Below are positions 9,427 to 43,294 of a stretch of 64,000 nt of DNA, piece after piece. Location of the stretch: IMG/VR virus record IMGVR_UViG_3300029998_000013, positions 62,001-126,000 of that record; one strand, given 5' to 3'. The stretch is from a virus. Under the pieces are notes generated by a model, which saw only the letters and a program-made list of their open reading frames with translations, did not search any database and had not been told where the DNA came from. The position numbers and the translations under genes were made by a program. Each line of letters begins with the position of its first letter. Position 1 is the first letter of the stretch.

Positions 9427-9472
9427 AAATAAAATAGCCCGACCACTTAATTGTGATCGGGCTATTTTTTTT
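9427..9472. terminator. Bidirectional terminator between lysis gene and late operon
   Basis: The perfect stem AAAATAGCCCGA / TCGGGCTATTTT, extended by CAC/GTG pairing around a TTAATT loop, has A and T tracts on both sides and can terminate both strands. It lies exactly between the lysozyme stop (9426) and the stop of the leftward late operon (9471-9473). Confidence 0.9.
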
Positions 9473-18058: not shown

Positions 18059-21000
18059 CTACTCGCACTTATAATTTATGAGTAAATTTTGACTTCTTAA
18101 TAATGATCTTATTGTTGCAACAGTTTGGTAATAAACACTTTCTTGGAAATTATTCTTAGCGGCTGTGGTATTAATAACGAAGTCACTATTTTTAATTTGA
18201 ATCATATCTCCATCAAGAAGCATTTTCCCTCTTACTTGATTAATTAGATAAAGAATATTATTAATCTGTTGTTCTTTTAAAATCTTCTTCTTTTTTTCAG
18301 TTTCATTTGTAATTTCAAAAATATCTTTGATACCTCTATCAACTCTTGAACTAAACATTAAATAATCATTGGCAATAGATGATCCATCTTTTACATAATC
18401 TTGAAATAATGGAGTAAGACGATTATCACCGTATGTTTCATTATTTACAATTAAATTATATAGATAAAATAAATCTTTTCATTTAACAATTTGACCATTT
18501 AATGCTGTAACTTTATTTGATGGCTCAATTGAGCTATCAATTTTATTAAATTCATTTAATAATTTAAGAAAGTTTTCAATACTAATAGGATTATTTAATG
18601 TACTAATTCCATATGTAGGGGCTATTTGTGTACCAAATAAACTAAATGGATTTCTCATACTTCTTAATGTTAATGTATCACTTAGATCAGATGTTTCTGA
18701 TTTTTCTAATACACTAAATAGAACTTGTTCCATCATTATTTTAAAATTTGCTATTCCATAATCAGATGTTAAATCAATAATAACATCATTGTCTGAACTA
18801 GGTTCAATTTTTAAAACCATATCTCCAACATGAGGAATTTTATTTTTAGTTGCTCCTCTTAAATCAAGTGCTGAATGCATTTTGGCTCCGTCTGAAGTAT
18901 ATAAATGAACATTTGGAACGCCAGCTAATTTTAATAAATCTTTTGCACTAAATTTAAAATTTGCAATTTTAGACTCTTTATCAGCTGTTTTTAATCAAGA
19001 AGAAATCATATAATTATCAAATGCCGAAAATGCACGACTTAACATTTTATCGTCCATAGGAATTGGTAATGCTGAATTTCCTCTTTGATGTTTTAATACT
19101 TGATCTTTCTTAACATCAGTTGTTAAAGCTTTTTCATTTGTTCTAAGTAAATCTCTATAATATGAGAATACAAAGTTAAACTTTTTTGATGTTAATAAAG
19201 CTATATTAAAGGTAGTTCCTACACTATGAATCATTTCTCTAAAGTGAGGCACATTTTCTAATACATCAAATACATTAACTGTATTTTTAATTAAATTATA
19301 GTAATTTGCTGCAGCCTTTCTATATTTATCATTTTTAGGATGAATAAAATGACGACAGTTAAACTCTCCACCAATAATTGATTTTGTATGAATTTCTTCT
19401 TTATTATAATAATTAATTGATGATACTTCAATTTCTGAAGCATTACGAAGTGTGTCAAAAATATAATCAAAAACTTGAGTCTTTGAGTCATTAGACATAC
19501 TATATAATTTACTTAGATGTGTATTATTATTTAAAATAGCTAATACAATATCCTTATAAGTTTTATTAGTATCTGATAGAGTGGTAGTTTTTGTTCCATC
19601 TGCATCAGTTTGACTAATACTATTTACTACTACATTAGTTTCAAATTCAGCTCTTACAGCTGCAACAACTTGATTATAATCATCAGTTCCTTTTAGTAAA
19701 CTATTAGCTGTTATATTCTTTAAACTCTTAAGTTTAAAGCCAAAAACTTTATGTTCAGAATTAAACATTGCACTTTCAATAACATTTAGAAAATTGTTTA
19801 GAGCATCAACGTTTGCATCAATAGAACCATTAACTCCAAAAATCTTAGCCATTGCTCCAAATTCAGCACCTCCATTAAAGATGTCTAAGAAAGTTTTACA
19901 AATAGCATCCATATCAGTTCTTGAATTATTATATAATGCAAGTTTACCTTCAATTTGTTGATATTGTTCAACTAATGCTTCAGCATAAACTGGTTTAGTT
20001 GTCAGAAAAGTATTTGATTGAATATTATGAGCTACATATTGTGCTAAGTCAGAATTCATATAAATAGAAACATCTTTAGCAGAGAAACCTACAGCTAACA
20101 TATATAAATGCATAGCGGCTAAGTCAACCACAGCATTAATTTTAGCCATAATTAATTCTTTAGCATTATCAGTTGCTCCAGAAATAAATCCAGAAATTGC
20201 TAATGCAGCTTGAATTCTATTAATTTCACTTAATTCTTTTTGTAAGTCTTCATATCCATATAATCCTAAAATAGATTGAAATGTAGATTTAGAAACTCTA
20301 GTGTCAGCAATACTTACTCTTGTATGTTTTTTTAATACTCCAGTAGCAGGATCTTGCATATAAAATTCCTTTAAGAAGACTTTATTATCAGATATTCCTT
20401 TAATGCTAACTAAACCTTCATCTAATTTTTCATACCAACTATTATAGTAATTGCTAAGTGCAAAGAAAACTTTTAATCCATTAGCTCCAATACCTACGTC
20501 TTGTTTACCCACAGCTGCTTGATATTGTTGTTTAAACATGCCAACAGCATTAGTAGACGAGAAACGATCTTTTCTCCTAATTAGATTTTTTGTAAAATCG
20601 GTTAAAGTTTTAATCTTAAGATCTGCTTTAGCTCTACTATTGATTGTTTTAGTTAAATCTGCAATTTCTGAATCAGTAATTGAGGCAGGATTAACATCAG
20701 CTAAAGTAGAGATTATAGTAAGTAAAGGAGCTTTTTCTCCAGAATTACTAAGTCACTCAGTTAAGATTTTATCAATTTGTTGAAGTCTTACTTTACCAGC
20801 CTCTGCCGCCCCAGAGTGCCACATATTAATACTAATAGGCACAGTAGCTAATAATTGATTACTTGGAGCACTAATTGTACTGTTAATCTTAGACACAATT
20901 GAATTTTGCAAAGTATGTCTAGAAGAAATATAATCAGTGTATTCATTATAAAAGTTTAAGAATGTTACTAATTTTGATACAGATGGATCAGTTAATATTA

Positions 21001-24000
21001 CTTGATTTGATAAAAGTTTAATATCTTGTGGCGCTAATTCTGAATCAGTTAATAGATCCTTAATAGTTTTTGCCCCTTTATTAATTTTTCTTAAAACTTT
21101 ACCTAATCTATTTATATCTTCTGGTGCCATTAACTTAGCAATTTCAAATGAATTAGATAAGTTACCTGCAATATTATTAAATCATGCAGCATCTTCATTT
21201 AAATTAATAGCTCTTTTAAGAATATATTGAGGAGAACTTTCATTCGTAACACTTACTAAAGTATTAGATGGTATAGGTAATGTACTTAATGCATCCAACT
21301 CTTCTTTAGTATTGTAGTCAAACATATTAGTCCATAAATCAAATTGAGAACCTTTATTAAATCCATAACCCATAATGTAGGCCTTATCAATATCAAAGTC
21401 AGATCCCTGTAATCAAATTTGTCATACTGATACATAAGCATTATTACTTGGTGTATTAAAGTATGCAATATTTTTCATAGGCATAAAAGACTGCATTGAT
21501 TGAGCTGGAATACGAGCGGCAATAAATTCATGTGATTTCTCTCATGATGCATATTGTTTCTTTGCTAATTTTTCAATAATTTCTTGTCTATTATTATTAA
21601 ATCAATTAGCGTCAGGAATATCAGATTGTCCAATCTTAACCTTAGTTAAATTATAATAATATCTTAGTAATTCATTACGTAAATTAACTGGCTGTAAAGT
21701 AGATTCATTGATTAAATCTTCTGTTGTATCATTCATTAGAGGAATAATAGCTCTAATCTCTCTAGCTGATTCTATAAACTCTTTAAATCATTTACCAGCA
21801 TTAGGATTAAATACATACTTAGATTTTGTTGTATTGGCTGCTTTAATGTATAAATAATCATCGCCATCTTTAACTAAAATTTTAGAGCCTAGTTTACCAC
21901 CTGGCTTCTTATATAAATACTCGCCAGTTTCCCCTAATCTATAAGTTACTGTTTTACCATCTTCTGAGTCCTGTTTTAAAATATTTCCATTTTGTTGTTC
22001 AGTTGGAAGTTGAGAAACTAATCTAACAAATATACGTTTCCCATTTTGTAAAACAATTTTAAAATCTGCAGGAGTTGAATCTTCTGCATAATCTTCTTCA
22101 AGCAATTCTTTAAAGTAAGAGGAACCCTTAGCTTTAACAGTAGAGATAGTATCATTACCATTACTGAAAGTAGATTTATAAATATTAGGAAGAACTAATT
22201 CAGCAGCACTAAATTTATAATTATAAACTTGTTGTGAGTTATTTGTTAAATAATGTTCTTTAACATCATCAAAAATATCAGCTACTAAGGAATCATTCCC
22301 AAAATAACCTGTAAAATTAATAATGCCATTTGCATCAGTAAATTTATTTAATTCTTGTAAAGTAATACCTTGGTCAAGTAAGTCTAGATTTCTTTGGGTT
22401 CAGAATCTAAAGTAATTATCCAATTTATTAATATCAAGTTTGCCTTCTGCAGTTAAAGTATTAAATCTAGCTGCAAATTGCATTAAAGTATTTAATTCTT
22501 GAGGAGTAATATCAGTATCATTTTTATTAGCTAAGAAGTCCTGATGCTGAGTTAATGAGTAACGTAATCTTACTGAATCTAAATCAAATAAGGTTTTTGT
22601 TGTCATAGTAGGCAAATATCTCTCATTTTCATTCATTTGGGTAGTAAATGATTGACCTGATGCCGCAGCTTTTTTAGACATTAATAACAATTCAATAACA
22701 CCTTCTCATCCCATTGGTTTATTTAATCCAAATACTTTTGCAAGTAATAATTGAAGTCTACCAATTGTTTTTTGAATTCATGATAAGCTAGGATTTTGTT
22801 CAGCTTGGCGTGCTAATAATTCTTCTATGATTTCTAATTGACCTTCTTCTGAGTTAAGATTAACACCATATTGAGTGGCCATATCTTCAACTGATGCCAT
22901 ATTAGAGCCATCTAATAATTTAGAAGCATTCTTATATAAATAGTCTCTGGCAGATAATAATATATTTTTATATGTATTAGCATCTTCTCCATTAAATAAT
23001 ATACTTAGTCCATGATGACCTACTGCTTCATGAATAATCAATTGATTTCCTTTAGCGGTTCCTTTATAAGCCCCATTTAAAGTAATCTCTTGTGTACTAG
23101 GATTATAGAACGAATTAACGATTGCATCAATTCCAGCAGCCTTAGCAATTCCTCGCATAGAACCCTCATCAACATATTGTACTTTTAATTTATTTAAACC
23201 AGCTAAAGAAAGACTTGTATATAATTTAGTATTTCTTTCTTTTTCTAACTTAGTGTCAAGGGTGGTGGCCACTTGAAAAGTTAATTCTGCAGGTTTTAAA
23301 TCACGTGTAACTCGAACTACTTTCTTAATAGCTTTATTTGGGCCATATGCTTTAAGTTTATAATATTCAGCAGGATTAGAAATTTCTCATAATTCTCCAG
23401 TTTCTGGATTAATTACAGTATCTGCTAAATTAATTTTATCAACTGTAGTATCAACATCTGGAAGTAATTGTTCAATATAACGATCAATTATTTCATTATT
23501 TGTTAAAGTTTCCTCTCCAGGGATATAATTATCAAGAGCTTCGCGAATCATGTCTTCTTGAGAATAGATAATCATTTTTTCAACACCATCAACAATCTTT
23601 GGAACTTCATAAATTTTATACATTTTATGTGAGGGGTTTAAGATAGCTCCTAAACCACTATAATAACGAGTTAAGAATTTATTATTAAGTTTAACAATTA
23701 AATCTCTCATAAAATGTTGAAAGAAGTTTTTATTGCTAAATGGTAATAACTCCCCATCTTTAAATGATTCGGCAATTGAAGTTGCTAAATCGACAGAAGG
23801 AGAATTTGCTAAGTGTCTCGCAAATTCCTTAGATAATGATTCATATAATTTATTTAATTCTGCTTCTCCTAATTTAGAAATAGAATTTACTCATGGTTTT
23901 GCAGCTTGTTGAATTAAACGAGCTATATCTTCATAAGCTTCATTAGCTATTCCAGCTGTTCTTTCATTCTGTGATAAGGCTGAAATTACTTGTGTTATTT

Positions 24001-27000
24001 CTTTAATCTTAGCAGCATCTGGACTATGACCAGCATCAAGCTGTGGTCCAATATGAACACTATCAAAACTAAAACTTCTTAATTCTGTGTCTCCAGTAAA
24101 TCAATCAGATGATGGATTTAAGTTAATTGCTCCAGATTTAAAGGCACCACTAGTAGATACAACATGAATCATTTTATCTTTTAATGGATATGCGCCATGT
24201 TCATCTTGATAATTAGTAATAATATGATAAAGAATATTTTGAGAATCTTCATTATAAACAAAAGACCCATCTTCTAAAACCCCAGAGAACTGCTCTCCAA
24301 TAGATTTTCATATATCAAATAAATTCTTTACCTCACGTGGTTCTTCAATAATATTTTCTTCAATATTTAAACCATTCTTATCAATTTGTTGTAAAGTTCT
24401 AACTAATTGATTATCATTAATTTGTAATCCTAGCAATTTAAAAATTTTACCATTTTCTACGAAATGATAATTAAAAGAACTTCCTAAATTAAATTTCTTA
24501 ACAGTAATAGGAAATGCAGATAGCATTTGTTTATTCTTCGAGTAATAATTTACAGGAGATCTTGACGAGGCTTGCATTGAAGCATTTGTAATAACAAATT
24601 CGGCATCTTTTTTAACAGAGCTTCCATAATCAGTAATACCTACCCCAAAACGTTTTAAAGTGCCATCATATTCTTTACCTGGATATGAAGCCGCAATCAT
24701 TTTACTATAAACAGCTGTAATTAAACTAGATCCATCTTGATAGTTAACTCCATCAGTATCCCCACCAATATTATAAACGTCATCTTTAGGGTCCTCAATA
24801 ATAGAGATATTAATTTTATCAGGAACACCAGTTCTAGAACCAAGAATAGCTCGCTCATAAGTAGCTGTAAATAATGAATTACGTTTAGCCATACCAGAAT
24901 ATCTAGCAGATGATTCTTCAGCAAATGCTTCTAAGTTACCAATTTGTGATACATTTCTTTCAGCTAACTTTTTAGCTGTATGCATATATTCGTGCTTAAC
25001 TGTAATATTTAAATATTCATTTCTGAATAGCATATTTGTTAACATCCATCTTTCTAATAATGGATTAATTTCTCCTTTATCATTTTTAATCAGTAATGCT
25101 GGTACTTCTTTAACTGTAGCTACATCTAAATCATCCTCATTATCTTCATATTGTTCTTCATGAGTAATAAATGATTCTAATACAGCTGGATCAATTCCAA
25201 AGAATTTGGCCAGATGAGTTAAATCTCCATCTTCTCCAATAAGCTTACCAAGTTCATTACTGTTAAGTAATAATTTAGCACTTTCTCCATTTCTAAAATT
25301 TAATAAATCAAATACTAAATTATTTAATTCAAAATCAATATATTTATTAAATTTTTGAAGATTTGCAGAGGAGTCTTTTGATGGATCAATTGTATCAGAA
25401 TAGAAATAAAAATTATCAAAAAGGTTTTGATTAACCATTACCTTCTTGCCATAGACAGCATAATCTTGTTCTTCAACAATATCAATACCTGTTTGCTTAA
25501 CAAAAACTAAAAAATCGTCTTTAGTAAATTTTGATAATTTATCATTAATTGCTACAAAAGCATCATTTGATTTAGCCATATCAGTAGATAATGTTAATCC
25601 AAAAATAGTATTAAACTTACTAATAATAGTTCTATATAAATCTGAATAATAAGCAGCTTGTTGATCATGAGCTAATGCTCTTAATTGTGGCACATTAATA
25701 ACTTTATTTTTTTCTGTAACTAATCCGCCAATAATGAAATCTTGATTTAATTTAGCATTTAATGCAATTTGTTTAGCTAAAATAGTATTTTTATCAGAAT
25801 AGTTACCAATAACTACATTATAATATTCAGATTTCCTTTTGCTTAATCCTAAATAGTCAAAAATAAAATTAGCTGTAAAGTTTTCAATAGGTAATCACTT
25901 TGCAGCATCTTTGCTTGATTTTTCATTAACAATTTCTAACTTCGTTGTAGTTCCCAATAGTATTGGTTCTGAACCTAAAAATAGATTTTTATATGAAGTA
26001 TTATTTGCATTATGTGGATCCTGTTCAAAGTTTAATCTACGAAGCATAACTTCACAATCAGAATATGCTAGATTTGCAACTTTGAAGGTTGGGATTTTAT
26101 TTCCCGAAGCAGTTGTAATTGTAGTAACAGGTCTTAACATGTAAGACTGTAAACTTATTTCTAAAGGATCTTGAATGACTTTTAATAAGTCAGCTAATGG
26201 CCCACCTTGTGTTGTGGCTTCATCAAACTTTCCTTGTAAAAGAGATTCTTCTCTAGCAATAATTAAATCAAATACAGTTTGACCATCTTCTCTTCCTGAT
26301 CCATTAACAGTGTTAATCATTAATCTAAGTTGAGAACGTAAAGCTTCAGTCTTTATCTTATCAATATCGTCACTAGATGTTATAGATTGTCCTGATATAA
26401 TCTTATTCTTTAAATCAATTATGTGCTCTTCTGGAATAAGGATTTGAAATCTCTTATTTAAGTATTTAGAAAAGTCTAAATCTGTAGACAAATCGTCCAT
26501 CTCATCAACATTATATAAATGTCGACGATTAGAGTTAGCTAAGAGTTTAGCATAGACACGTCCTTGTGCTTGAATTTGTGATAAATTCTGAGAATATAAT
26601 TCTTTATAAATAACCGATCCAGTACTTGGATTATAAATTGCATACACAGCTCCATTTGAGTTATTTAATGGTTGTGAAATAACATCATATAATGATAAAG
26701 CTGGATTATTCTCTTCTTTTGTTTTTACAGAGTCAAGATATGATGATACGGAGTGTACTACATCAATTACAGCTTTAAAAGGCAAATACATTTGATATAC
26801 TCCAGCATAATTAACAGCATCCGCTTCTTTAATTTTTTGAAAATAATATTGTAATGCTTTCTTTGGATTTTTAGATAAAAGTGTTCATTCAGTATCCTTA
26901 CTTAAAGTAATTAAATTTCGTGTTTGAAAATCTCTAAAAGTCGCGGACAATCCATAGAAGTGAGTCATTGATAAGTATTCGTGAGTTGAATCTCCTTGAC

Positions 27001-27997
27001 GATCTAAGTGTGGAATTGTATTTAAGATTTTTTGAGTAAATTCATCATTAAGTCTATCAACTGATTCAGATTCATGTGTATCAGTATGGGATAATACTTT
27101 TTCTCCCGAAGTTTTAATTTTATACTTTGGAGATCCTAAAGAATCAACAAAAGTATTAAATGATTTAAAATCAACATCTAATATATAATTAAATTCTTGA
27201 CTAATTACACTATCAAAATTAGTTAGAAACACAGCTGCATTATAAGCATCATGTTTAGCTCTAACACCGATACGTTGAATATCTCCCGATAATGAAGGAA
27301 TTACACGTTGTTCTTCAGCAAATCTAATTTTTGGATCAATAGAAGTTAAGTGCTTAAATAAATCTATTAAAACCTTTTTATATGTTTCATAATTTTCTAC
27401 TTGGAATGTATTTCCTACATAGAGATTAGCTGTGAATTTTCTATCAGTATAATAATCATCTTTATGTAAAACGTCTTGAGCAATTAAATAATCTACAACC
27501 GTTTGAAATAATGAATTCTTTAGATCTTGAATTCCTTGACTAATTTCAACGTTGCCTCTAACATAGGTATCACGATTGAGAGGGCCTCTATAGATCGCAT
27601 TTATTACAAGTTCATTAATCCTATTATGAAAATAAGATTTGGCAACTTGTAAATTAGTAAACATATCATCTACAATTGGAGATGTAAACTCATTAATTGC
27701 ATCAGTTCTAAACGCCGCAGTGGGTCTAGCAGCTAGATTTCTAAGTTTACGATTAGATGTTCTAGCTGTAACAATTTCTGGAGCTAATGCACTAAGCCGT
27801 TCCAAAATAGTTGTACTATTGATGTCTTTATATTTTTGTCTTAATTCTTCTATTGTCTCAGTCTCGGTAGTCTCAGGCCCGTAGAAAGCCTGAGCTGCTT
27901 GAAATAGCAGCCCAGGAATATCTGCGGGAGACTTTGCCATTAAGATCTGTCGCCCAAATTTCATGAGTACAGGTCTAGGACATTGTTGTTTACCCAT
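18059..27997 (-). CDS. Giant virion RNA polymerase polyprotein, 3312 aa
   Basis: One frame from ATG at 27997 to TAG at 18059-18061 when TGA is Trp, with more than ten TGA codons. The key motif is SDFDIDKAY: Asp2200, Asp2202 and Asp2204 (21386-21400), the Mg-binding triad of the double-psi beta-barrel RNA polymerases (YonO/crAss type; the phi14:2 virion enzyme is the studied relative). Upstream, MQSFMPMKN and VWQIWLQG lead into it. An earlier DG-rich segment, DTDGVNYQDGSSLITA (about 1080-1095), may be the second barrel (inference). Two zincin-like motifs lie in the same chain, HEYMH (1002-1006) and HEAVGHH (1656-1662). The polymerase is expected to be packaged and to transcribe early genes after entry. 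Confidence 0.9.
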
Positions 27998-28008
27998 ATT
28001 TTATATTT

Positions 28009-31000
28009 TTAACAGGTTCATAGTTTTTCTATATTATCTCAAGCTTCATTATTTGGATCTATAGCCATAACTTTATCCCTAAAATTAGCGAAGTTTTCTG
28101 GTATATCTCCCGTAGTAAAGAGGGTATTTATATCTATCTTATTTTGAGTTAAAATTTCAAGAATAGCAGTAATTTCTTCTTGAACTTTTGGATCAAAACT
28201 ATCACCCTCATCCATTTTTCCATCTAACATTAGTGTTATTCTATTTCTAACTAGATCTTGAATAGAACCTGGAGTAAAATCTAATTGTTTTAATTTTCCA
28301 GTTCAAACTGATTCGGGTTTTGAATTTCCAAGAATTACATTTAGTTCGGCAACTGATTTAGTTTTTAATAAATCTATCTTACCTTTTCATTCTGCGAGTT
28401 TTAATGCAGATTTGACTAATTGAGCTCTAACTACTTTTACTTTTAATTGATCTATATTATCACTAGCTTCTGCAGTAAAAATAGGTTTTTTATTAAATAC
28501 TATTTGATTTAATTCAAATGTAGTGGCTATTTTTTCTTGTTGTTCTGGACTTTTACTCCTTAATATCTTAATTGCTTTCTTAATTTCATCAATAGATACT
28601 CCAGAATTAGCAATCAGATTTCTAACTGTAATAGGCAAAGCTGTAGTTGATGGCTGTAAATTTAATGCTTTTGCAACTTCTAAGTATTCTCCTTCGGAAA
28701 TATTACTTGGATTATTTAAGAAATCTAATTTATCTATAGAAGATTCTGCCCCTAACTTAACTTTATCTCTTAAATCTACTAAAATTCGTGGACCTTCTGG
28801 AGATAAAGTTGTATAAAGATTATCTAAAATACTCGGATGAAAAGTATCACCGACTAATTCAGTTCCTTCGTTTTTTGTTAAAATTGGAATATTATAATAA
28901 ATTGAATCTTTAAGACCCTTTCAATAATTCACCACATCATTTATAACAGAAAAATATTGTTTATCTAAATCAACCCCAATACCATTCTCTTGAATTTTAG
29001 CTTCTAATGCATTTTGTAATTTAAAAATATTTCAGAATGCTTTAAATCAATAACGTCCTTCTTTTTGACGGGCGACAGTATTAATTACATAACTTTTAAA
29101 TTCTGTACGATATTTTGCAGATTCTTCTGGACTAACATTCGTTGGTTTAGGATGAGTTTTAACATAATCTCTAACAGATTCATAGACTTTTTGAGCACCT
29201 TTATTACTATAAGTAATAGCATCTAAAATAGTCTTACTAGCATCTTTATGAGCGTTTGCAAATAAAGCTTTTAAGATTTTTTGTGCTGAATCATCACGAT
29301 TCCCCATTACATCAGTTAATCAAGAATTTCCATCATTTAATAGTTTATCAAATAATTCTACTTTTTCTGTTGCTAAAGAAATTAACAAATCTAATACATC
29401 ATTTCCACTAAATAAACTACCAGATAAAGCATAGACTTCATCTAATGCTTTTTTACCCTGAACAGTTTCAGAAGTTTTTCTTGCATCAAAAATTCTCTTT
29501 GTTAAACTTGGAGTATCAGATGTTCCATTAACAATTTTATCAATTTCTTTTCAAGTACGAGTAGTGCTATGCATTGTGATAAATCTAATAGTTCTATCAT
29601 TAGGTCCAACACCAGTATCATCCATATAAGAAGCTGTAATATAAGGTCGTCCAGCTCTTTGTTCATATGATTTTTTAAGTCTATCTTCAAAGTCTACTTT
29701 ATCAGCATCATTTCAACCTTCAAAAGATTTTCCAAATAAAGTACTTTTAAATAAAGTTTTATATTTTTCAAAATCTTTAGGAAAGAAATTAATAACTGGA
29801 TCATTAACAACTTTAAAGTTAGAGTCATAAAATAATAAACCAGGTGTTTCAGTTAATTCTTTTAAACTCGTTTGTAATTTTTTGCCATTAACTGGTGGTC
29901 ACATACGAGTAGACGTAATATTAACTACTGTTTTTGGATTATTAATTTCAACATACTTACCAATTTCTAAATCATTCATTAGAGTTTCATAAGTTTCTAA
30001 AACTCGCTGATTGGTAGGAGAATTAGCAAATACAGAACCAATAACATTTTTTAAATTTTCTAAATCTGGAAATGTTCCAAGATGCACAAAGAAATCTTCT
30101 CCAGTTGTTGGATTAATAAGTCTATACATTAAATTTAAATATTTCGATTTATCAGGCAAATGTTTACTTGCATCATCATATTTAAGAGCTACAGGTTTAT
30201 TTGAAGCTTCGTGATATAAATCAGCTGTAATAACAAAACCAGAAGTAGTTTTACCATCTTGACCTTTTGGTAAAACATCACTTAAAGTTAATAATGGATT
30301 AGCAAATATTTCTTGAACAGTTTTAATGTCAATAACTTTATTCTTTAAGATTTGATATTTAGCTTTAATTAATAAATTAACTGCTTTATCATAATCTGCT
30401 TTTGGCATCGTTACTTTACTAGCTCTTTGATTTTTAAGTAGATAATCCAATCCATAAGAGAACTTAGAAGCACCTCTTGCAATAGTTGCTTTATCACCAT
30501 TTAAAGAACTGATAACACTCATATCATTGTAAAAGGTATGAACCATTACATTTTGAGAGCCTTTATGTGATTCACTAAAACGAGTTAAAGAGAATTTTAA
30601 TACAGTATCTTGAATATCATTATTTAATGAGTCAGTGACATCAATTCTATCATCAGTTGACATTAACATATCTTCTGGACTTACTGAACCAACATCAGCT
30701 TTTCTATTAAATAAATAATCATTATCAAGAGTAGTTGTAGTTCCTAAGAGTTTTTCAAGTTCTTTAATTCTTGCGGCCTTTAATTCAGTAACCATTGTAG
30801 CATCTAGAGGATTTAACTCGTCTGTATATGAATCAGTTTTTTGATGTAATTCTAAACGTTGTCCAAAATCAATATCAGCATCTCTTACAATAATAGAACC
30901 ATATTTAGCTCTAGATAAATAAGTATAGAAAGCTTTTAGACTATCAAAGATACTCTTTTCTTTTGCTGCGGATAAATTAAAAACAAAATAATCGAACTCT

Positions 31001-34000
31001 CTACCTTGAACCTTTTTAGGAGTTACTGCAATGTAACTAGGTTCAAATATTCCAGCTTTATCTAATTTAATTTTTAAATCATCAGAGATAACTCCAGAAC
31101 TATCTGTTAGAATACCAATAGTTCTTTGCGGGTTTTCTTTAATTGCTTTAGCAATTGAAAGTAAAGCATCCATTGGAACAGCTCCTTCTACTACTTTATC
31201 GCCATTAAAGACATTTGCACTTTGAAAATATTTTAAAGTAATTCCATCTTTTAAGAAGTTCTCAAAGACAGATTGAGTTGATTTTTGAGAATCTAATCAA
31301 ATTCTACTAATATTTCTAATTGTGGTAGAAACAATATCATTATTGTCTCTTTTTTGATTATTCTGTGCTCTAATAGTTAAGAATAAACTCGGAGCAAAAA
31401 TTCCTGAAACACGACCAACATTATAGTTAATCCCATTAAAATCAACACCTTTTTGTAAGGTGTCACCGGCTGCAAATATTTTAACGACTTTTCCATCATT
31501 AGCCATTGCTCTTTTAGATACTTCATTAATTAATGATTGCTCTAAAGCTGTATAATGACTAATTTCATCAATAAAGATAATTTCAGGCAAATCAGTAGGA
31601 ATATCAAATTCAGGCGTACTCTTGAAGAACAGATGATCTTCATAATTAGACTTTAAAGTAGCCCCTTCGGTATTTCGTTCAATGTCAGTATTTTCATCCT
31701 TCTTGATATTATCAATTACATCTTTTAAACCAAGTCTGGCAAATAACTGATCTTTCGATAAAGTATTTGTAGTATATTTAGTTTTATCTAATCCACTTAG
31801 TACATCATTTTCAAGCTTTGTAGCCTGTTCAATTTCAGGACCAGAGAATCAAACATCAAGATGAGAGTTAGATTGAGACATCATTGCTAAGTACAATTTA
31901 TACATTACTGTAGTCTTCCCTGTACCAGCATTACCTAGAATATAAGTTATTAAAGTAGTATCATATGCTCAAACGCCATCTATTTCATCAGTTTTTTGAA
32001 TAGGAGATAACTCTTGAAGAATTTCTGAAAATAATTCAGGATTAATAGTTGAGGCATACATAATTTTAATTCCTAATTCTTGTGTAAAGAATGGAGCTTT
32101 ATCAAATGTAGTCTTTAGTGCATTTAACATTTTAATATTAAAGTCACTTGATTTTACAGACATTGTTCCTAATAAATATAATAACATGTCATTGTTACTA
32201 ACTGCCTTAATGTCTTTTGTAATTTCATCTTGACCATTAGAAGAATAAATACTTTCAATCCTATTATCAAAAGAAAATAGATTACTTAATATTTTTCCAA
32301 TTGCAACTTTATCTTGTATACTATATTCTTTTACATTTTCATAGAATGAATTCTCTATTGTTAATAATTTTTCTTCATCAGATAGATCTGAACTTAAAGT
32401 ATCAGTAATATTAGGAATAATTGCTTTATCCTTATATGTTAAATTCTTTTTAATTAGTTCACTTCAATTATTAATTAAAAGCTTATTAAATTTGGTCTTA
32501 ATTAATATTTGTTCCTTAGCTAGAAGACCTGAGTTATATTTAGATAGATCTTTTAAAAATTGTAATTTTATTCTAACTCTTTCTAACTCTTTAATAATTA
32601 ATGCTGCTTGATCAGAGGTAATTGAAACCAAGTCTTTCACATCCGATTCAATTTTATTTCGCGCAGCAAAACTTTGACGAGCTGCAATAAATCCTATAGG
32701 ATCAGCATAAGTAAGTTGAGTACTACTTGCACCCCTTACAATGCTTTCAAGCATTTTAATTGTATTAATTGAAGTAGTTAGATCAGAAGTTTTATAACCA
32801 CTGGAGAAATAAGAATCTAGGGTTGAACTTTCAGCTAATTTAGCTTCTTCACTCTCTAAAATATCTCAGATTTTTCCAACAGTTAGTTTTGAATCTCGGT
32901 CCAAAAATACATCAAATTTTCTAATAAAATTATATACTGAGTTTTGTTTAAACATCTTATCATTAGCAGTTAATTGATTTAACTCTAAGACAGGTTTAAG
33001 TGCGTTTCCATTATTTAAGATCTTTGATACAACTTGTCGGAGTCCAGTAATATTTGAAAGTAAATATTCTTGTTGACTTGGATTTGCAGATGCAATTGAG
33101 TCAATTGCTCTTTTTATTCCTTCTGGTAAATTTTCTCCTATAGCTCCAGCATATTGTCAAAACCCATCAATAAAATCTGGATTTTCGCTTTGTGATTCTG
33201 ACACCATTTGACGCAAGCCAGATAAGATAGATTGCAGTTCTGAATTAGATAATGAAGCTAATTTTAAGATATCTGCATCAGATAGACTAAATGTAGAGGA
33301 AAGTGCTTTAATAGGTTTTAAATAACCTGAGACAACTTTCTTAGCTAATATTAATAATTCTCCATCCAGATTTTTATTATTTTTTAATTCTCCAATTAAA
33401 GCAGGTAATAAAGCATCTGTTGTTCCAAAAATTGAAGGCTGATTTGCTAACAATTCTTGTTTTAATTCATTTGTTGCGCTTTGAAAATTATTATATGTAT
33501 TAGCATCTTGATTATAGCGTTTGATTTCTCCATTAAGTAGATTTACCACATTATCTAAGGATGTGTTAAATGTTTCTAAAGCATTAATAATATCAGGATT
33601 TGTTCCAGTATATTCATCTCCAGCTAGAATAGCTTTCTTTTCTTCATCAGAAATATTAGCATTATTAACAACATTAGTAAGATCTTCTGTAATTTTAGGT
33701 AAATCAGCATTTACTCCAAGAGTTGAAGCATATCGTACTAATTCATCAATTGGTGTTTGTTCAGTAACTGAAGGTAGAGCTGTGACCTTTCCAGGCATAC
33801 TAATAAATCTATCTAAAATGTCAGTAGATAATCCTTCGGTAGCTATATGAGATTCTTGTAATTGTTGAACTGAGTCATTAAAATTCTTCTTGAATTCTTC
33901 TAATTCTTCATAAGGTACTAACTTAGCAACTAGCTGTCTTTTATTAATTTCTTTGAATAATTCTTCTTTACGTGCGTATTTATTAGGATCAGACTCAGCA

Positions 34001-37000
34001 CCATCAATTGTAATTGAATTAAATTCAGTTACTAATGGATTAAAAGCTGCATCATTTTGTTCTCTAATTTCACCATTTTCACGTTCAATTTGATCACTAA
34101 AGAGTTTACTAATTGTATCATAGTTAAGTTGTTCAGGAGGCAAAGAATCAATAATTGATTCTAAAACTTTAGCTACAAGTTCTTTCTTTTTAATTACTTG
34201 ATCACCAAATTGAATAACTCCATCTTCATCTTCCATAGTAAAAGCTTTTGTTCCCATTAATGTTTGTGACATTTGAGAATTAATAGCCTCTCATGGAAGG
34301 ACTCTATTACCAGTCTTTTCTTCAATTTGTTTAGCTTGTTGTAAGAATCTTTGAACCTTTGGAACAGAACTTTCTCCGTCTTTAGTATCAAATAAATCTT
34401 GAGTAATAGCTAGATTTAATAAATTTTTTCAAGTTTTTGCAGATTCGTCTATATAACCTGATGCTACATGTTCTCCTAATATAGGATTAAATTTTTGTTC
34501 AAGATTTAAATAAGCTTTATATCCTAAGTCTAAATATTGTCTTAAATCTTTATTTGCAACATAATCTGCAAATTCTTTATCAACTCGTTCCTTACTTAAT
34601 GACATTGTGCCTTTGTCTGGCAAATTATTATACGGAGTATTATATTTAGCTTCAACAAACGATTCTTTATCAATTGCAACAAAATCACTACTAATTGGTT
34701 TAGATAAGTATCATGCAGCTTCTCCAAAATAACGTTCAGCTTGATTACCCTCAAGAATATCTTGAACAATTAATTTATAACTATCGCGTTCTTGAGATAA
34801 TCTTTGTACTTCTTCTGAGTTTTCATCAACCTTTTCGCCAGCTTTTCCATTTAAGCTATTAATTTTAGAACTTAAATCTAAGATTTTTCCTCTATAAGAT
34901 TTATACTCTTCTAATATTAAGCCCTCTAAACCAGTTCCTGATGCTTTTTTATCAGCTCTTAATTGCTGAATTAATATATCATCACGAAGAGCTTTTCTTA
35001 CAACTTCTTCATCACTAGATCCTAAATCTTGAGAATTTAATAATCCATCAATAGATTCTACCATATTAATTGCTCTTCCAGCAATAATATCAGCAGAAGA
35101 TAAAGTGCCACTATCAGCTATATCAAATGTTCCATCGTCCTTGATTGGGCTAATGTAAGTATTACCCCATGAACTTTTATGTTCATTGATAATCTTAATA
35201 ATATCATCTTTTTTACCATTTGCAATTAAATCATAAATATCCTCTTTAGTATCAGTAGGCAATTGATGATGAATTCAAGGATCAATTCTTGATTGTTGAA
35301 ATTCAAACATAGATCCACCAATAAGACCACCAACAAAGTTAGCTAAATAATTTTCTAATCCAGCTTGACTAAAGACAGTACTAAAACCACCCATAGATCC
35401 TTGATTTTTAGTTAATCCAAGGTAAGATAAAATATCTACAACTCCTTTAGTAGCATCTAATACAGCTTGTTCTGTAACTTCTTCAACACCTTCTACTACT
35501 GAATTCTTTCACATAGCTTCGCCTAAAACGGCTGGTGTCATAAAAGTATTATGTAAAGCATCTTTGATTTTTCCGAATGTTCCAGCTAAGCTAGCTTTTC
35601 CAACAGAAGCGTCTTTAGCCACTTCTGTTAATCCATCTTTAACATCATCAAGAAATGGCAATATACTTTTTCTCATAAGAGCTTGGTTTGTACCAAGACT
35701 ATATCCTGTAGTTTTATCTAAGAATCAGTCACCCATTCTGTTATTGGCCATGATACCATACTGTCCTGCAGCTGCACTTAAGGCAGCAAAACCAGCAGTA
35801 CGACGATCATATCCTCCAGCTAGTGCTTGAGAATATACATCTGCTGACTGTAACATTGACATATAACCTAATGATAATGCTTTAGATAATTTAGATTGTG
35901 AATCCATTTCAGCAGCTAACTCAGGAATTTTATTAATCGCGTTTTGACGAATTTTTAGAAAATCGTCCACAGATAATTTATTATCAATTAAATCGCCAGT
36001 TAATTCATCATCAATAGTTTTTAAGAGTTCTTCACCTTTTGCTGAAATCTTATTCATTGCAGGCTTCTTAATAAGCATTGATAAACTAGCAGCTGCTCTT
36101 TGTTCATAAATCTGACTAAAGACTGAGCCAACCATTTGACTTAATTGCTCGTAATTAAAGAAAGAATTCGAACCTTGATCTGATACTGATTGTTGGTTAA
36201 ACTTAGACATATAACTTTCAGCTGCTGTTGCAGCATCATTTAAAGGCGTTTTTGTATCCCCCAATAACATTCCTTCAAATGCTTTATAAAATGTTGGAAG
36301 TATAGAACCTAATGAAACAGCAGCTTTTAATCCTCCATAAACTTCAGCAACACCTGCCACAGGAATAAAGAATGGAGCAATTTCAAAGATCATTTTCGCT
36401 GTTGTTCCCATAATAGATTTATCTCTACTATCCGAGTCTAAAAAGTCAAATTGATTTGCTAATGAGCCGTCTGTAGTTAATAAATCCATCGGACTTACAA
36501 CTTGGCGGCCATAAATTTCTCTATTACCTAATTTTTCTAAAAATAGATTTCCATTATCATCATATTTTCATTCACCTTTTTTATGATTGACCATGCGATT
36601 TGTCTCTGGATCTTTATGCATTCCATCCTCATCCCATTGACCATAAACTAATGTATCCCCAAAGAATTTAGTTAATATTCCTAAATCATTAGCAGATTCA
36701 TTACTCCATGTCTTAGTATCTGGATCATAAACCTTATTTTGTTGCGCAAGTTCTCTAACACTTAAAGGGTTCTCGTCAACACTATTAATACCACTCCTAC
36801 TATATAAGTATTTAAATGGATTAAAGTCTAACTTAAACTCTACTTCAGGTGTAAACGTTTTTGATTCTAACGGGCGAGTTATATCAAATGGACTATAAAC
36901 AGCTTTTCCTAGATTATCTAGGAAATTTTCATCTGTCATCTCTTTATAATGTGATGCTGCTTTATTAAAAGCCAAATCAAATCCTGATGAGTCAAACTGA

Positions 37001-37170
37001 CCATCAGGTGTTTTAAACTTATCCTGCACGAATTTACTTTGCAAATAATCCTCTTTCTTATAAAAAGAGGTATTATCTGGCGTAAGATCTGCAGACATAA
37101 GATCATAAGTTGTTGATTCTGGGTTATTTAATGAGGCAACAAATATATCATTAGGTTTTGTTATTTCCAT
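28009..37170 (-). CDS. Giant virion protein, 3053 aa, with embedded SF1 helicase
   Basis: One frame from ATG at 37170 to TAA at 28009-28011 when TGA is Trp. Residues ~150-600 have Gly/Ala-rich hydrophobic stretches (IAPFFIPVAGVAEVYGGLKA, FVGGLIGGSMF) typical of ejected internal virion proteins. In the middle is a superfamily-1 helicase: Walker A GNAGTGKTT (1746-1754), Walker B FIDEIS (Asp1868-Glu1869), motif III GDTLQ (1902-1906), LTIRAQN with Arg1934, VQGREFD (2054-2060) and YLSRAK (2084-2089). The UvrD/RecD-like order and spacing are kept. The N- and C-terminal thirds have no recognised domains. An ejected helicase could help genome entry or early transcription (inference). Confidence 0.88.
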
Positions 37171-37173
37171 ATA

Positions 37174-39024
37174 TTATTTATTTAAAAATGCTCCGCTAGT
37201 TGAATTAACAACTTTCTGATTAGAGTATAGATTATTTGTCTGAACTGTTCCCATAGTAGGGATCTGTTCCCTAGGCCCTTGTCCTACCATAGCATCTACG
37301 ATAGCAGCATAACCTTGTCTATATGGAATTGTGATCATTCCTTTATAATAATCTTCAACATGTCAAGATTTATCGGGAGTATGATTAATTGTTTTCTTTC
37401 CAACTGTTTCTACTCACACCTTTTTAAGCTGTGGCATAATACGTGTTTCTTCATCTCGTGATAATTTTGTAATAAATGAATTATTATCTGTTAATGTTGT
37501 GCCATCATTTGTATAGCCTCCCATTACTCAGAATGGCTTAACTTTAGAGTTGTCTCTAATAATTTTTACCTTATCTCCATCTTCATACTTTTCATCTATC
37601 TGCAAATTGTAATTATTACGTTTGAAGAAATCCATGGATTGTTGCGCAGACCAATGATCTTTATTTGACTCATATACTGCATAGATTTCTTTAAACTTGG
37701 CAAACTCCTTATAATCTGGGGCACCACTACTGTCCACAGGCATATATACTTTCGCACCATCTTGGCCATTATAAATTAAGTTATTAAATTCGGTTGGATC
37801 CACTAATTTATCACCAAAGTAAACTTTACTTGGTTCTAAGAATTGATTATATCCTGCATTTAGGACATTTTGTAAAGTTGTCATTCCAACACTTTGCCCA
37901 TCTGGAGTAATTACTGGAGATACTCCAGCAATAGATCCATTAAATAGAACTCCAAGTTTTGGATCATTAAAAGTAAAGTGACTTTGAGGAGACATTAATT
38001 TGTCCTTATGTAAAAGTTGAAATTGAGTTAATGATCTCATTCCAGATCCTCCAGAACCATCGCTCGATGCACCAGTAGATGTAACTGGAGTAACAGATGA
38101 TGATTGAGAAATATTTGTTTGAGTCATAATCATATCATAAATAAATTTACTTGGATTTGATTCTCCATTAAGTGCTGCTATTGCGGCTAATTTTTGTTGT
38201 TTATGTGGATCTAGAGTTCTTCAAATATAATTTAAAGCTACATCCGCATGAGCTCGTTCAGTCTTAACTCCAGAAGTTATTTTATTTAATTCCTGAATTC
38301 CGGCCATTTCAGCATAACTAGGTTTAACACCTGTAGCTCCTGCCATCTTTTGTGCTAACTGAGCTTTTGAAACAAATTTAGTATCTTCAGAAGATTCTTC
38401 TCCTAATGATGCTATAATAGCTCTAATATCATTATTAATCTTTTCTACTCCAGTAGAGTTTTGAGCGACGTCAAAAACATCTTCTCTACCAGTTAAATTT
38501 GGATTATAACGACGTTCACTTAATAACTCACTAACAGTTAAGGCTTGATATTTTCCTTTGCCTTTTGCAAAATCTTTAGTTGAGATGGTTTGAACTTGTC
38601 CACCATCATTTTTGACATACATCAATCCACTACTATTTACAGCCACTTCTCCTATTCCACCTGAACTTTCAGCAACAGAATTTGCTTTATCTCAAGCAAG
38701 TTTACTATTTCGAAGTTCATTAACCTTTCCAATCATTCTTAAAGCTAATGTTCGATTAGCTGAACTAGTATAAGGAGTATTTCCTTGAGATTTTTCCAAA
38801 TCAATTAATTCTGAAACAAGTGCATTAACATCATTAGTTAGTCCACCCTTTGTTAAGAGTTCTTTAAAAGTATCATCATCTAATATTGAAGCTGGTTCTT
38901 TTGAAGTAGTACTAGAATTCGTTTGAGAATTTGTAGATCCAAAAGAACTGGCAGGAGAGTGTATAATAGGGGTGAATGTTGCAAATCCACCCCCATTTTG
39001 AAATTTTTCTATATTTACTTTCAT
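37174..39024 (-). CDS. Virion protein, 616 aa, probable ejected cargo protein
   Basis: Continuous from ATG at 39024 to TAA at 37174-37176 with TGA as Trp (TGA at 38692, 38221, 37528 and others). It begins MKVNIEKFQNGG, one of several late proteins with a K-F-Q-x-GG motif near the start. A Ser/Thr/Asn-rich linker follows, then a helical core with KYQALTVSELLSERRYNP and ALNYIW. I remember this core as conserved in crAss-like phages, where a gene at this place encodes a cargo protein packed in the capsid or tail; that match cannot be verified here. It lies four bases upstream of the 3053-aa gene. Confidence 0.8.
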
Positions 39025-39025
39025 A

Positions 39026-42000
39026 TTATTTAAAGACCTTTATTAAAGATTTTTCTAGCATTTCATTATTATGTAAAATAGCTTTAAAGACTAAATCCAA
39101 GTCTTTCTCATTACTTCTTTTTGCATCCCTCATGTTATCGTAATCAATTTTATCTTGTAGTGTCATAGTTCCTCCAGATTTTCTAAAATACATTTGACTT
39201 TGTAAATTATATAATTTTAATTTATTAGCTTCAAGTTTTTTAGTTTGAGGTTCTAATTTTGCTGCAGTTCCCTTTTTGAGAGCATCTCAATTTTTAAAAT
39301 AATCCGATTCTTCTCATGGTGTAGCATAGTTTCCTCCAGCTAATTTAGCAGCTCCAACTGCATCAGTATATTGTTTATAATATGCTTGTTGTGTTTCAGG
39401 TGATGCTGCATCTGAGGCTTCCTTTATTAACTTTTGATAATTTTCATCATTATATAATGAGGAACTTTCTTCCATAGTGTTTCTCATTTTTTTAGGTAAA
39501 ATATTTCTTTCTAGTCCTGTTAATAAATTCGTTACTGCTGTATTTTGAGCTAATGCTTCATTAGAACTAACTAGTTGAATTTGCTTATTTACATTGGCAT
39601 CTATAGCTCTATTTTGTCCAGTAATTTGAGCATTTTGAGCATCTACTCGAGCATCTGCAGCAACTTGTTGATTTGTTAATTGATCTAAACGCTCTCTATC
39701 AGAATATTGACCTTTTGCAATCATTTCTGCACTTTTATTTGCTCCTTCTGATTGAATAGCAATAGAACGGTCTAAATCGCCTTGGGCTCCTGCCATATTT
39801 TGATATTTCCTCTGAAGCTGTGTAGCTTGTCCCTGAGCCATTGTTGTAAATGGAGTAGATTTTCTTGTATATGATTTAGATAATGTTGGAATTGTATAAC
39901 GACTTTCATTTGCGGCAGCTCTTTGTCTATTACCTACAATTTTATTAGTAGCAATTGTTGAGGCTGCCATTCCAAGATTTGATAAATCGGTTAAATCAAA
40001 TCCTTTAGCGGCTCCACTAATTGCTCCAAGAGCTTGATTAAGAAAACCTGGTTTTTGATTAACTTGCTTGGATCCTGTAATAGTAGTCATCATGCCCATT
40101 AAAGCTTTTTCTTGTGCTGTTAATTGACGTGCATATCCACCAGCTTGAAATTTTATAATTCCACCTCTAGCTTTTTTAGGAGCTCTTGTTCTAGTTTTTT
40201 TAACTTTTGAAGCAACTGGTACTTCAGGAACAGCAGGTGTTTCTGCTAATTTCAAGGCTGCTAATTCATCAGCTTTTGCTTTAGCAATTTTTGCTTCTTC
40301 GGTAGCTTTAGCTGTAGCAACTTGTTCAGTGACTTGTTTAGTTTTATTTCGAGCATCTCATCCAGATTGGATTCTGGCACGTCTAGCCTCAGTAATAGAT
40401 TCTACAATTTCGGGTTGATATTTCTTAATATGAGCTTTTGCTAATTCATAATCTCTAACATTAATAGAACGATCTTTATTAATTGGTTGAACATTCTTAG
40501 CTAATTTATAAGCCCCAGAAGTTTCACTAGGAATAAATTGAGATTTTAGAGTACTTGGGTCTAATAATTCATTAATTTGAGTTTCAGTTAATGTTTTATC
40601 TTTGCCAACTAATTTAATTACAGATTCTTTAAATTTCTTTGCAGTTTCTGAATTTGCTGCATCTACAGTTTCTTGTTTTCCAAATAATGATTTTTTAGCA
40701 AATTTTGGTATTTCAAGTTTTCCATTAATTGTAATTGGTTCTTCATCAAGAGTTAAAATAGTTTTATCAGACGTTGAAGCGGTTGGTACAGTTTGACGTT
40801 TAATTGCTCTAATACCCATGGCATCTTTTGCTCAAACATTCCCCATAGCACCTGTCATAAGTATATTTTTTAGATCAGATGGTTTTGTATATTCAATACC
40901 ATTTTCATGCCAATCCTTTGCAAAATTAACTCCAGAAATTACTCCTGGTGCCACTGTTCCAACTCTTAATAAGGTTTGAGCTGTTTTTGATTGAGTTAAG
41001 AATTTTAACTCACCTTTTGCAGCATCTCCCATTCCTTTAGCATAATGTCCTAAAGCTGCACTTCCTAAAATTGGTTTTGAAGAGTCCTTTAAAGTATTTA
41101 ATACTTTTAATCCTTCTTCAAACGCTGCTTTTTCTTCTTTTCCTTTTAATCCTCTTGATAGGGAAACATGTTCTGCTAATTCACCAGTAGTTTTAGCCCC
41201 ATATTTTTCTCCGAGACTTATTACTTTTTGTAGTGATTCTAATTCTGGTTCTGCAAGAGCTATTTTACTAGTTCTACTTGCTATTTTAGCTAAATCCAAT
41301 CCAGTTTCAGCTACTTTTCCAGCTTTTAGTAAAGCTTTTACTCCACCCAATCCAATTGCAGAAAGACCTAAAAATCCTAAATTTAATAGATGATTTCCTC
41401 AATTATCAATTTTACCATCTCTAGCATCCTTAACAAAATCAGCACCAAGTGTAACACCAGCTCCAAGTGCTCCATAAACAGGAATAAAAGAACCTACTGA
41501 TCCAGCAATTGATGCCACATCTAAAGCTTTATCGATTCCATCCTCTTCTTTTCAAGTTCCAGTAATATTTTTTACTTTTGAAGTAGGTGATGATGTATTT
41601 GAACTTGTCTGTGATTCTAATTGTTTTTTATACTCTGCAAAAGACATACCTTTCTGAGCCATAATTATACCACCTTCTTTATGTAACTGTGTTCCATTAA
41701 TTAAGGCATAATATTTAATTAGAGAATCATATACTTGTTCTTTAAGACCAGGGTTACTTAATAAAGCTGGATCATGAGTCAATGCTCATTTTAATGAGCC
41801 AGCTGCTTTAGTTCGATCATCACTAATTTCATTATCATGAATCGCCTGAGCAATTTCATTATAGTCTACTTTATAGTCATAAGAATTAGAATTATGTGTT
41901 CCTTGTTGTAAGGCTGGAAAAATGTTATTATAGTCACGAATTTTAGTGGCAGTATTTCCATATCCTAAAATATTTAGTTTAACAGGTCTCAAATGTTGAT

Positions 42001-43294
42001 CTAAATACATTCCTGTATTATTATCTCAATTTAACTTAAATTTATTTCCACCCTGTTCAACAACTAAACTTTTAGTAAAATCTCTACGTCCTAATTTATC
42101 CGTATTATATTTACTTCCATCATCTTCAGATCAACCATATACTTTAGCATCTGGAAGGTCAGTTTTGAGGTCCATTCCAATGTTATCCTTTTCATGTGGA
42201 TCTAAACCTCATTGCATATCTGCATTATTCTTATGATTTTGTGGATTATAAAAATGAAAACCTTCTAAATCATTATTTCATGAATATCCATATCCAGGAT
42301 GAAACCTGTCTTGAATACCATAATTAAAGAAATTATTGTTGGCTATCATTACATGTTTGCCTGCATCATTTTTAAGAATTTTAACCTGATGTGCTTTTAA
42401 AATATCGTCTAATCAAGGTGTTTTTTCATATCCCTGAGGTCTTCAATTTGCATCTTCAGTTGTATAACCCGCGTTGGTTAAAACATCCTTAGCAGGTCCA
42501 GTAATGCCTATATTATGGAAAAAATCACCAGATTGTTTAGTCTTTGTTGCAAGATTTTTTTCTTCATAAATTTTAGCCTGATCTTCATCAATTAGATAAT
42601 CATTTAAAACTCAACCTAATTTTGAAGAAGCTTGTTTAACTGATTCTCAGTCAGGAGTTCCAGAATTTAAAAGTTGATCTAAGTGTTTAACATCTTCTAG
42701 ATCACTATAATCAAATTTTCCTTTACTTTCAGCATAACTATTTAAATACTTTTTAACATTGCCTTTTGCAAGATCATATATCTTGGTTTTTCTTGCATCA
42801 TCAGTATTAAGTTTTAGTCACTCTGTTTCAAAATTATCTGGAGTAACATAAGCATCTTTACTAAATGTATAATCTCTTAGATTTTGAATTGAAATTTTTG
42901 GTAAGGACGAAACGATAGGAGTTGTGGGTGAGGAAGGCCCTTTCATATTTTTTAAGGCTTTACTATAAATAGCGGCAGCAACAGACATAGCATCATCATC
43001 TCCAGCAATTTTTAAATTTCCTGTAAGTCAATTACTATGAATTTCATCCGCACTACCTTTAAATTGACTATTGTTTGGTCCTGTGACTGTATATGTTTGC
43101 GCAACATCATCTGTATTAAAGGCTTTACCTCCATCAGATGTTGCAAAGTAATCACGAAACTTAGTTAAAGCATCGCGAACTTTTCTTTCGTCTTTACTTC
43201 TTAGCTGAAATGAACCTAGTTGCTTATTTAGTTCCTCGTCTAAAGCATTGCGGTCTATTGTGTCACCAGCTTTTAATTTTTTTATTAACGCCAT
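39026..43294 (-). CDS. Large virion protein, 1422 aa, helix-rich with hydrophobic segments
   Basis: ATG at 43294 to TAA at 39026-39028; the region 42011-43028 was read codon by codon and holds only TGA (about ten), no TAA or TAG. The N-terminal half is polar and rich in Trp encoded by TGA. A middle zone has hydrophobic Gly-rich stretches (SVGSFIPVYGALGAGVTLGA, LGFLGLSAIGLGG) that may insert in membranes. The last third is Gln/Ala-rich and helical, and contains GGIIKFQAGG, the shared K-F-Q-x-GG motif. A related GGIIMAQKG occurs earlier. No enzyme motif is seen; an ejected internal protein forming a channel is an inference. A terminator precedes it. Confidence 0.83.

Follow-up and report, generated by a model that had tools for sequence, protein, structure and literature searches.

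Introduction

In the human gut, few viruses are as abundant as the crAss-like phages, which must bring a genome of 100–190 kb into the cell and start its transcription. In phage crAss001, gp45, 46, 47, 49 and 50 of the block gp45–gp50 were detected in virions and are discussed as ejected cargo (PMC10172136), and the block gp76–gp83 of phi14:2 is annotated as structural from tandem mass spectrometry. Phages of the zeta group have genomes of 145–192 kb, reassign a stop codon in the late block and carry many tRNAs with suppressor anticodons (PMC7886860, PMC12386605). In the zeta phage Lera, TGA is read as tryptophan, and TGA codons interrupt the open reading frames (ORFs) of "RNA polymerase and helicase" (PMC12386605). 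Here we analyze a stretch of 64,000 nucleotides (the window), bases 62001–126000 of the 178,320-bp virus record IMGVR_UViG_3300029998_000013, and in particular its gene D, which encodes a giant protein with a confidently predicted superfamily-1 (SF1) helicase in its middle third and lies beside the gene of a crAss-type virion RNA polymerase. Positions refer to the window unless stated otherwise.

The initial annotation of this locus counted no helicase among the ejected proteins of crAss-like phages, which is wrong in detail. The two best structural matches to the N-terminus of D, zeta crAss-like phage proteins in UniProt/BFVD at 25–27% identity, bear the automatic names "RecD-like protein" (A0A8S5RTY8) and "Helicase" (A0A8S5TKT5), phage cr50_1 encodes a Dda-like helicase, and the "helicase" ORF of Lera is perhaps the counterpart of gene D. 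A figure legend in Yutin et al. (PMC7886860) lists an "SF1 helicase". In the literature searched, we found no text that analyzes D or the cr50_1 helicase or proposes a packaged helicase in crAss-like phages, and no description of the D helicase domain, its universality or a virion role; for its zeta relatives there are database names only.

Results

Under translation table 11 gene D is broken, and the region 29899–31980, to which the helicase had been assigned, holds a 424-residue ORF only. Reading TAG as glutamine left the frame broken and was rejected, whereas reading TGA as tryptophan opened it. Gene D (28009–37170, minus strand, as are all window features below) then forms one ORF of 3053 amino acids with 24 in-frame TGA codons and a TAA stop, and the same reading turns the whole minus-strand block of the window into a row of long genes. 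Several TGA sites of D, for example W201, W482 and W1774, align with tryptophan or another aromatic residue when the relatives with the TAG code or the standard code are compared.

The helicase core covers residues ~1640–2150 (30721–32253), as delimited by a 55-sequence alignment, the AlphaFold model, Foldseek and VIA-align comparisons and PDB profiles. All motifs quoted in the initial annotation were recovered in the right order between residues 1746 and 2089. Motif I, the Walker A sequence GNAGTGKTT (1746–1754; 31909–31935), has its G, G and K invariant in the 55 sequences; it is followed by motif Ia GPEIEQ (1777–1782; 31825–31842), a conserved GPxxxQ-type motif, by motif II, the Walker B sequence FIDEIS (1866–1871; 31558–31575) with an invariant DE, and by motif III GDTLQ (1902–1906; 31453–31467) with invariant D and Q. 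The motif IV region is the "Q/R" stretch RAQNNQKRDN (31342–31371) with the invariant R1934. Motif V, VQGREFD (2054–2060; 30991–31011), is at least 90% conserved in its QGxE, and motif VI, YLSRAK (2084–2089; 30904–30921), contains the invariant R2087. In addition, a PxxxQE element (P1693, Q1697; 32077–32094), whose P and Q are at least 90% conserved in the same alignment, lies 48 residues N-terminal of Walker A and is a probable Q motif. Together with G1990, the residues named as invariant make up all the invariant columns of an alignment with ~20% identity overall, and they coincide almost exactly with the catalytic residues of SF1. Of the region first proposed, the end at 29899 is just an ORF boundary of the standard code.

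Profile searches against the PDB gained strength as the alignment grew: three sequences gave RecD at 3.1e-4, eight gave Upf1 at 4.1e-12, and 55 gave NAM7/Upf1 at 1.4e-16 with a match spanning both RecA domains. Against Pfam, the window protein matched AAA_30, AAA_19, Viral_helicase1 and UvrD_C_2 collinearly, but all below the gathering scores. Since the PDB profile searches are significant, we read these sub-threshold scores as a sign of divergence and not of the absence of a helicase. AlphaFold2, run on the 55-sequence alignment, predicted two tandem RecA-like domains with a predicted local distance difference test (pLDDT) of 86.9 and a predicted template modeling score (pTM) of 0.89, the fold that had been anticipated. 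The best Foldseek matches of the core model are SF1 helicases, namely nsp13 (2e-10), RecD (6.6e-9), Upf1, Dda and RecD2; the global TM-scores of 0.3–0.5 are modest, which a different angle between the two RecA domains would explain. Structural alignments to Dda, UvrD, Pif1, Upf1 and nsp13 cover model residues ~31–473. With VIA-align, whose Z is on the DALI scale, we obtained T4 Dda at Z 20.0 (296 residues, root-mean-square deviation 4.6), DSH9 at 20, UvrD at 18.2 and Pif1 at 17.3, and HelD in its RNA polymerase complex was among the matches at Z 16.5. A chance string of motifs in a long ORF is ruled out by the profile searches, the invariant residues and the structure, and the assignment of the middle third of D as a predicted SF1 helicase is thus secure. 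Within SF1, the Dda/Pif1/RecD/Upf1 class (SF1B) is likely, because Upf1 at 1.4e-16 compares with PcrA at 2.8e-4 on the UvrD/Rep/PcrA side, and Dda at Z 20.0 with UvrD at 18.2, the latter being a small gap.

We then asked how general the fusion is. To avoid selecting for the helicase, loci were collected with the N-terminal 500 residues only, which furnished 74 loci, 66 of them viral and 8 from bacterial assemblies. L046 and L092, which end before the helicase position or are fragments, were left out of the count. Behind the N-terminal domain, each of the 72 testable loci encodes the helicase, 71 of them in the same ORF around residues 1350–2400; several of the 72 are copies of one phage, and 60 non-identical helicase regions are left after removal of copies. 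The fusion occurs under three genetic codes, including standard-code relatives that have no recoding, such as MT835470 (L002), with an uninterrupted D version of 2970 residues, and L016 with 2726. A scan with the helicase alignment detected further members of 3038 (TGA code), 3298, 2967 and 3996 (TAG code) and 2726 residues (standard code), while a single-sequence scan of viral contigs gave no match. An assembly chimera or a mis-joined ORF is ruled out, since the same fusion recurs in 71 of 72 loci found with an independent query and under three codes. L081 had appeared to be a member that lacks the helicase and was rejected as such when a larger profile detected the domain at 2.5e-51. The helicase is genuinely part of a single large polypeptide, whose gene adjoins that of the RNA polymerase, and the fusion recurs in every related genome examined. 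The divergence of the helicase parallels that of the N-terminus (Mantel rho 0.54, with 0 of 999 permutations as high), which points to a single old fusion and not to repeated capture. Altered motifs occur in a few members, for example GEQSQ in L024.

Several members depart from the usual layout. In L080 (9986–19245) and, found separately, in MT835492 (L011:31429–40706), D is split at about residue 1540 into genes of ~1540 and ~1550 residues, with the helicase beginning the second protein, so that a covalent link between the halves is not needed. The 3996-residue version (L015:5750–17740) exceeds the usual length by ~1000 residues, the extra part lying C-terminal of the helicase. The loci from IMG/VR and from bacterial bins stem from uncultured sources. 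The members L085–L091 come from contigs assigned to the bins Erysipelotrichaceae, Tenericutes, Firmicutes, Rickettsiales, Gastranaerophilales and Clostridium. These are probably mis-binned phage contigs whose bin names do not identify the hosts, although some may point to hosts beyond Bacteroidota.

The gene order on the minus strand is M, F, E, D and C. Gene M (51761–56161) is a homologue of the muzzle, or tail tip, and ties the window to Crassvirales, with a match at 2e-10 to crAss001 gp44 and matches to structural proteins of DAC15, DAC17 and cr126_1. Gene F (39026–43294, 1422 residues) is a putative cargo-block gene from its position, which is the same in L002, L011 and L012. Gene E (37174–39024, 616 residues) lies directly upstream of D, and its family does so in 79 of 79 testable loci. 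Directly downstream of D follows gene C (18059–27997), a crAss-type virion RNA polymerase of 3312 residues with the motif GSDFDIDK at residue 2200 (21386–21400) and homologues in the relatives. The polymerase gene adjoins D in close relatives as well, and 23 of 24 further records have it either next to D or within a few kb on the downstream side; in the remaining one the contig ends there. Genes B (14158–18057) and A (9471–14150) continue the same strand block downstream of the polymerase. While D contains 24 TGA codons, the frames of the DnaB-type helicase, the DNA ligase and the thymidylate synthase of this phage contain none. Given that recoding in crAss-like phages is mostly limited to late genes (PMC7886860), D is a late gene.

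The flanks of the helicase are, as first noted, some 1700 and 970 residues free of known domains: alignments of neither the N- nor the C-terminal part matched a family in Pfam, PHROG or PDB, and D has no match at all in PHROGs. The helicase is thus the sole recognizable effector domain in D by these searches, whereas polyvalent proteins are defined by several distinct ones in a single polypeptide. The N-terminal domain (residues 1–760; 34891–37170) is the best-conserved part of D and mostly helical after residue ~250 in a model with pLDDT 77.5 and pTM 0.60. It carries an EGxEExxE ... GGxxGG signature (residues 560–619; 35314–35493), in which E560, E563, E564, E567, G614, G615, G618 and G619 are invariant in 50 sequences. 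Compared with viral structures by Foldseek, this model matched only its own family at E ≤ 0.001, except for the 1004-residue protein A0A345N460 (9.8e-9). The domain is a candidate for virion docking or envelope contact, for which neither a family nor a fold speaks. The C-terminal part (residues 2151–3053; 28012–30720) is weakly conserved and belongs to no known family.

The phage itself shows the features of the zeta group, with its 178,320-bp genome, TGA read as tryptophan and tRNAs with suppressor anticodons, and the window contains the crAss-type muzzle and the DxDxD RNA polymerase in a conserved block. We assign it, by features and not by a tree, to the zeta group of Crassvirales (proposed Echekviridae) and call it zeta-type. 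Outside the window, the same genome has 27 tRNA genes, including ones with TCA and CTA anticodons. Twenty-four of them form a single cluster with the CTA anticodon (L004/L008), the TCA-anticodon tRNA lying elsewhere, as described for Lera. Also outside the window, at genome positions 129497–142432 (minus strand; L007:4498–17433), a stop-to-stop frame of 4311 residues with 41 in-frame TGA codons is among the largest TGA-recoded ORFs here.

Further observations concern the surrounding genes. When two sequences were compared, residues ~90–265 of gene A showed a weak similarity, at 8e-4, to the PD-(D/E)XK-like stretch of crAss001 gp47; the D/E two positions before the lysine is Ser here and Leu in a relative, so the site may be inactive. 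A DUF192-domain protein (PF02643, 9.2e-27) is encoded at 43663–44589 within the late structural and cargo block. In MT835470 (L002:31345–32382), a segment that contains a short separate ORF, and that is probably an intron encoding a homing endonuclease, breaks the polymerase gene right at its DxDxD motif, and polymerase matches in several other records are interrupted at the same position.

Discussion

We propose that D is a late-made cargo motor of the SF1B class, packaged and ejected together with the polymerase and acting on the incoming DNA for the first round of transcription, a reading to which we give a probability of about 0.48. D would be held near the portal and packaged with the virion RNA polymerase of the next gene, its motor flanked on the N-terminal side by a virion or membrane module and on the other side by a C-terminal module. 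It could be threaded through the tail partly unfolded, as argued for the crAss001 cargo, and refold in the host, where it would spend ATP to translocate on or open the phage DNA. The co-ejected polymerase would thereby start and sustain early transcription, and D might also draw the DNA in. A role as partner of the polymerase is favored because D adjoins the polymerase gene and because in Cohcovirus the polymerase itself has become joined to another SF1 helicase. The Cohcovirus fusion points to a helicase–polymerase partnership, and the structural matches of D include HelD in its complex with RNA polymerase.

Several points weigh against this proposal. No helicase domain was found in the corresponding block of crAss001, phi14:2, DAC15, cr106_1, phi17:2 and five of six sampled Suoliviridae; because Steigviridae, most sampled Suoliviridae and phi17:2 have none there, a crAss-type polymerase has no general need for a block helicase. 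D and gp47 are equivalent by position only. Aligned with hhalign, the N-terminus of D and crAss001 gp47 gave two weak matches (E 0.012 and 0.31, probability 3.5% and 0.2%) that agree in order and spacing, and the homology, plausible by eye from the EGxEE and GGxxGG elements, stays below significance. That D is packaged in the virion is a well-founded inference from late recoding, synteny and the proteomics of position-equivalents in other phages. Motor activity is predicted from sequence and model, and because Upf1 is the best sequence match, RNA is a possible substrate. We nevertheless infer packaging, ejection, DNA rather than RNA as the substrate, and the partnership with the polymerase.

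Other roles for the same protein have to be considered. If D served entry itself, it would be anchored at the inner membrane by its N-terminal helical module and pull in the ~180-kb genome independently of transcription. Pressure alone becomes limiting towards the end of the entry of a large genome, and a helical N-terminus that bears invariant glycines and is joined to an SF1 motor fold would suit this task. Membrane anchoring is weak, however, as D has a single marginal hydrophobic segment, and other crAss-like phages enter without a D-type helicase, though their genomes are smaller; we regard this role as unlikely. D could instead be ejected to strip or outrun host nucleases, restriction or silencing proteins, in the manner of the SF2 helicase-methylase DarB of phage P1, and such functions are frequent among giant phage virion proteins built in this way (PMC5512222). 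Domain searches of D, however, turned up neither a methylase nor an ADP-ribosyltransferase, nor any anti-restriction or other conflict domain, and its strict conservation in all relatives fits a core function better than a conflict function, so that counter-defence appears rather improbable.

Late recoding fits an enzyme that stays in the cell equally well, and as packaging is deduced only, D might act in late transcription, recombination or DNA packaging and enter particles incidentally or not at all. We give this little credence in view of the fixed gene order inside the cargo and polymerase block, the block equivalents that are virion proteins in the two cultured phages crAss001 and phi14:2, and the separate DnaB-type helicase of the genome. 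The high divergence (~20% identity) and altered motifs such as GEQSQ would suit a structural relic, an SF1 domain that has lost ATPase activity and is kept for folding or packing. Yet G, G, K, D, E, D, Q, R and R stay invariant in 55 sequences amid drift, which is the pattern of catalytic constraint and makes a relic very improbable.

Returning to the packaged motor, zeta phages may eject an ATP-driven machine along with their DNA. All sampled zeta-type relatives retain the motor, its gene keeps company with that of the packaged polymerase, and helicases have joined the crAss-like cargo block at least twice. K1752 offers a concrete residue to mutate when asking whether an ejected phage protein must hydrolyze ATP for genome entry or for the first transcription. 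One may speculate further, and clearly more tentatively, that an SF1 motor borne in the particle is obligatory for zeta phages, leaves the particle before the genome or together with it, and opens promoters for the co-ejected polymerase, pulls the genome in or does both, with Cohcovirus having arrived at the same solution independently.

Among known systems, crAss001 gp47 and phi14:2 gp78 ("putative RNA-polymerase subunit") are, like D, very large, and their genes likewise follow the muzzle gene and two smaller ones and lie beside the RNA polymerase genes. Their virion location, however, is known by mass spectrometry, while that of D is presumed. Neither has a Walker A motif or a helicase, and gp47 carries PD-(D/E)XK-like and HExxH stretches instead. 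Phage cr50_1 (Cohcovirus, Suoliviridae; MT774375.1) also encodes an SF1 helicase in the polymerase and cargo block. Its 4774-residue polypeptide (L093:13231–27555), automatically named "DNA helicase", runs from an HExxH stretch through the RNA-polymerase DxDxD motif to an intact C-terminal Dda-like SF1 helicase (AAA_30, 3.6e-22). Unlike in D, the helicase here sits at the C-terminus of the polymerase itself, a direct polymerase–helicase fusion. That it is the zeta helicase was rejected, as phmmer found no match among zeta ORFs, and it apparently represents a separate acquisition. With the SF1B helicases T4 Dda, Pif1, RecD/RecD2 and Upf1, D shares all SF1 motifs and two predicted RecA-like domains, but it differs by an identity of only ~15% and by its compact core within a late phage protein of ~3000 residues. 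Finally, DarB of phage P1 and other polyvalent proteins resemble D as giant proteins with a helicase-type motor, and DarB is found in the virion and thought to act on incoming DNA (PMC5512222). DarB, however, combines an SF2 SWI2/SNF2 helicase with an adenine methylase, whereas D carries an SF1 helicase and no second recognizable enzyme.

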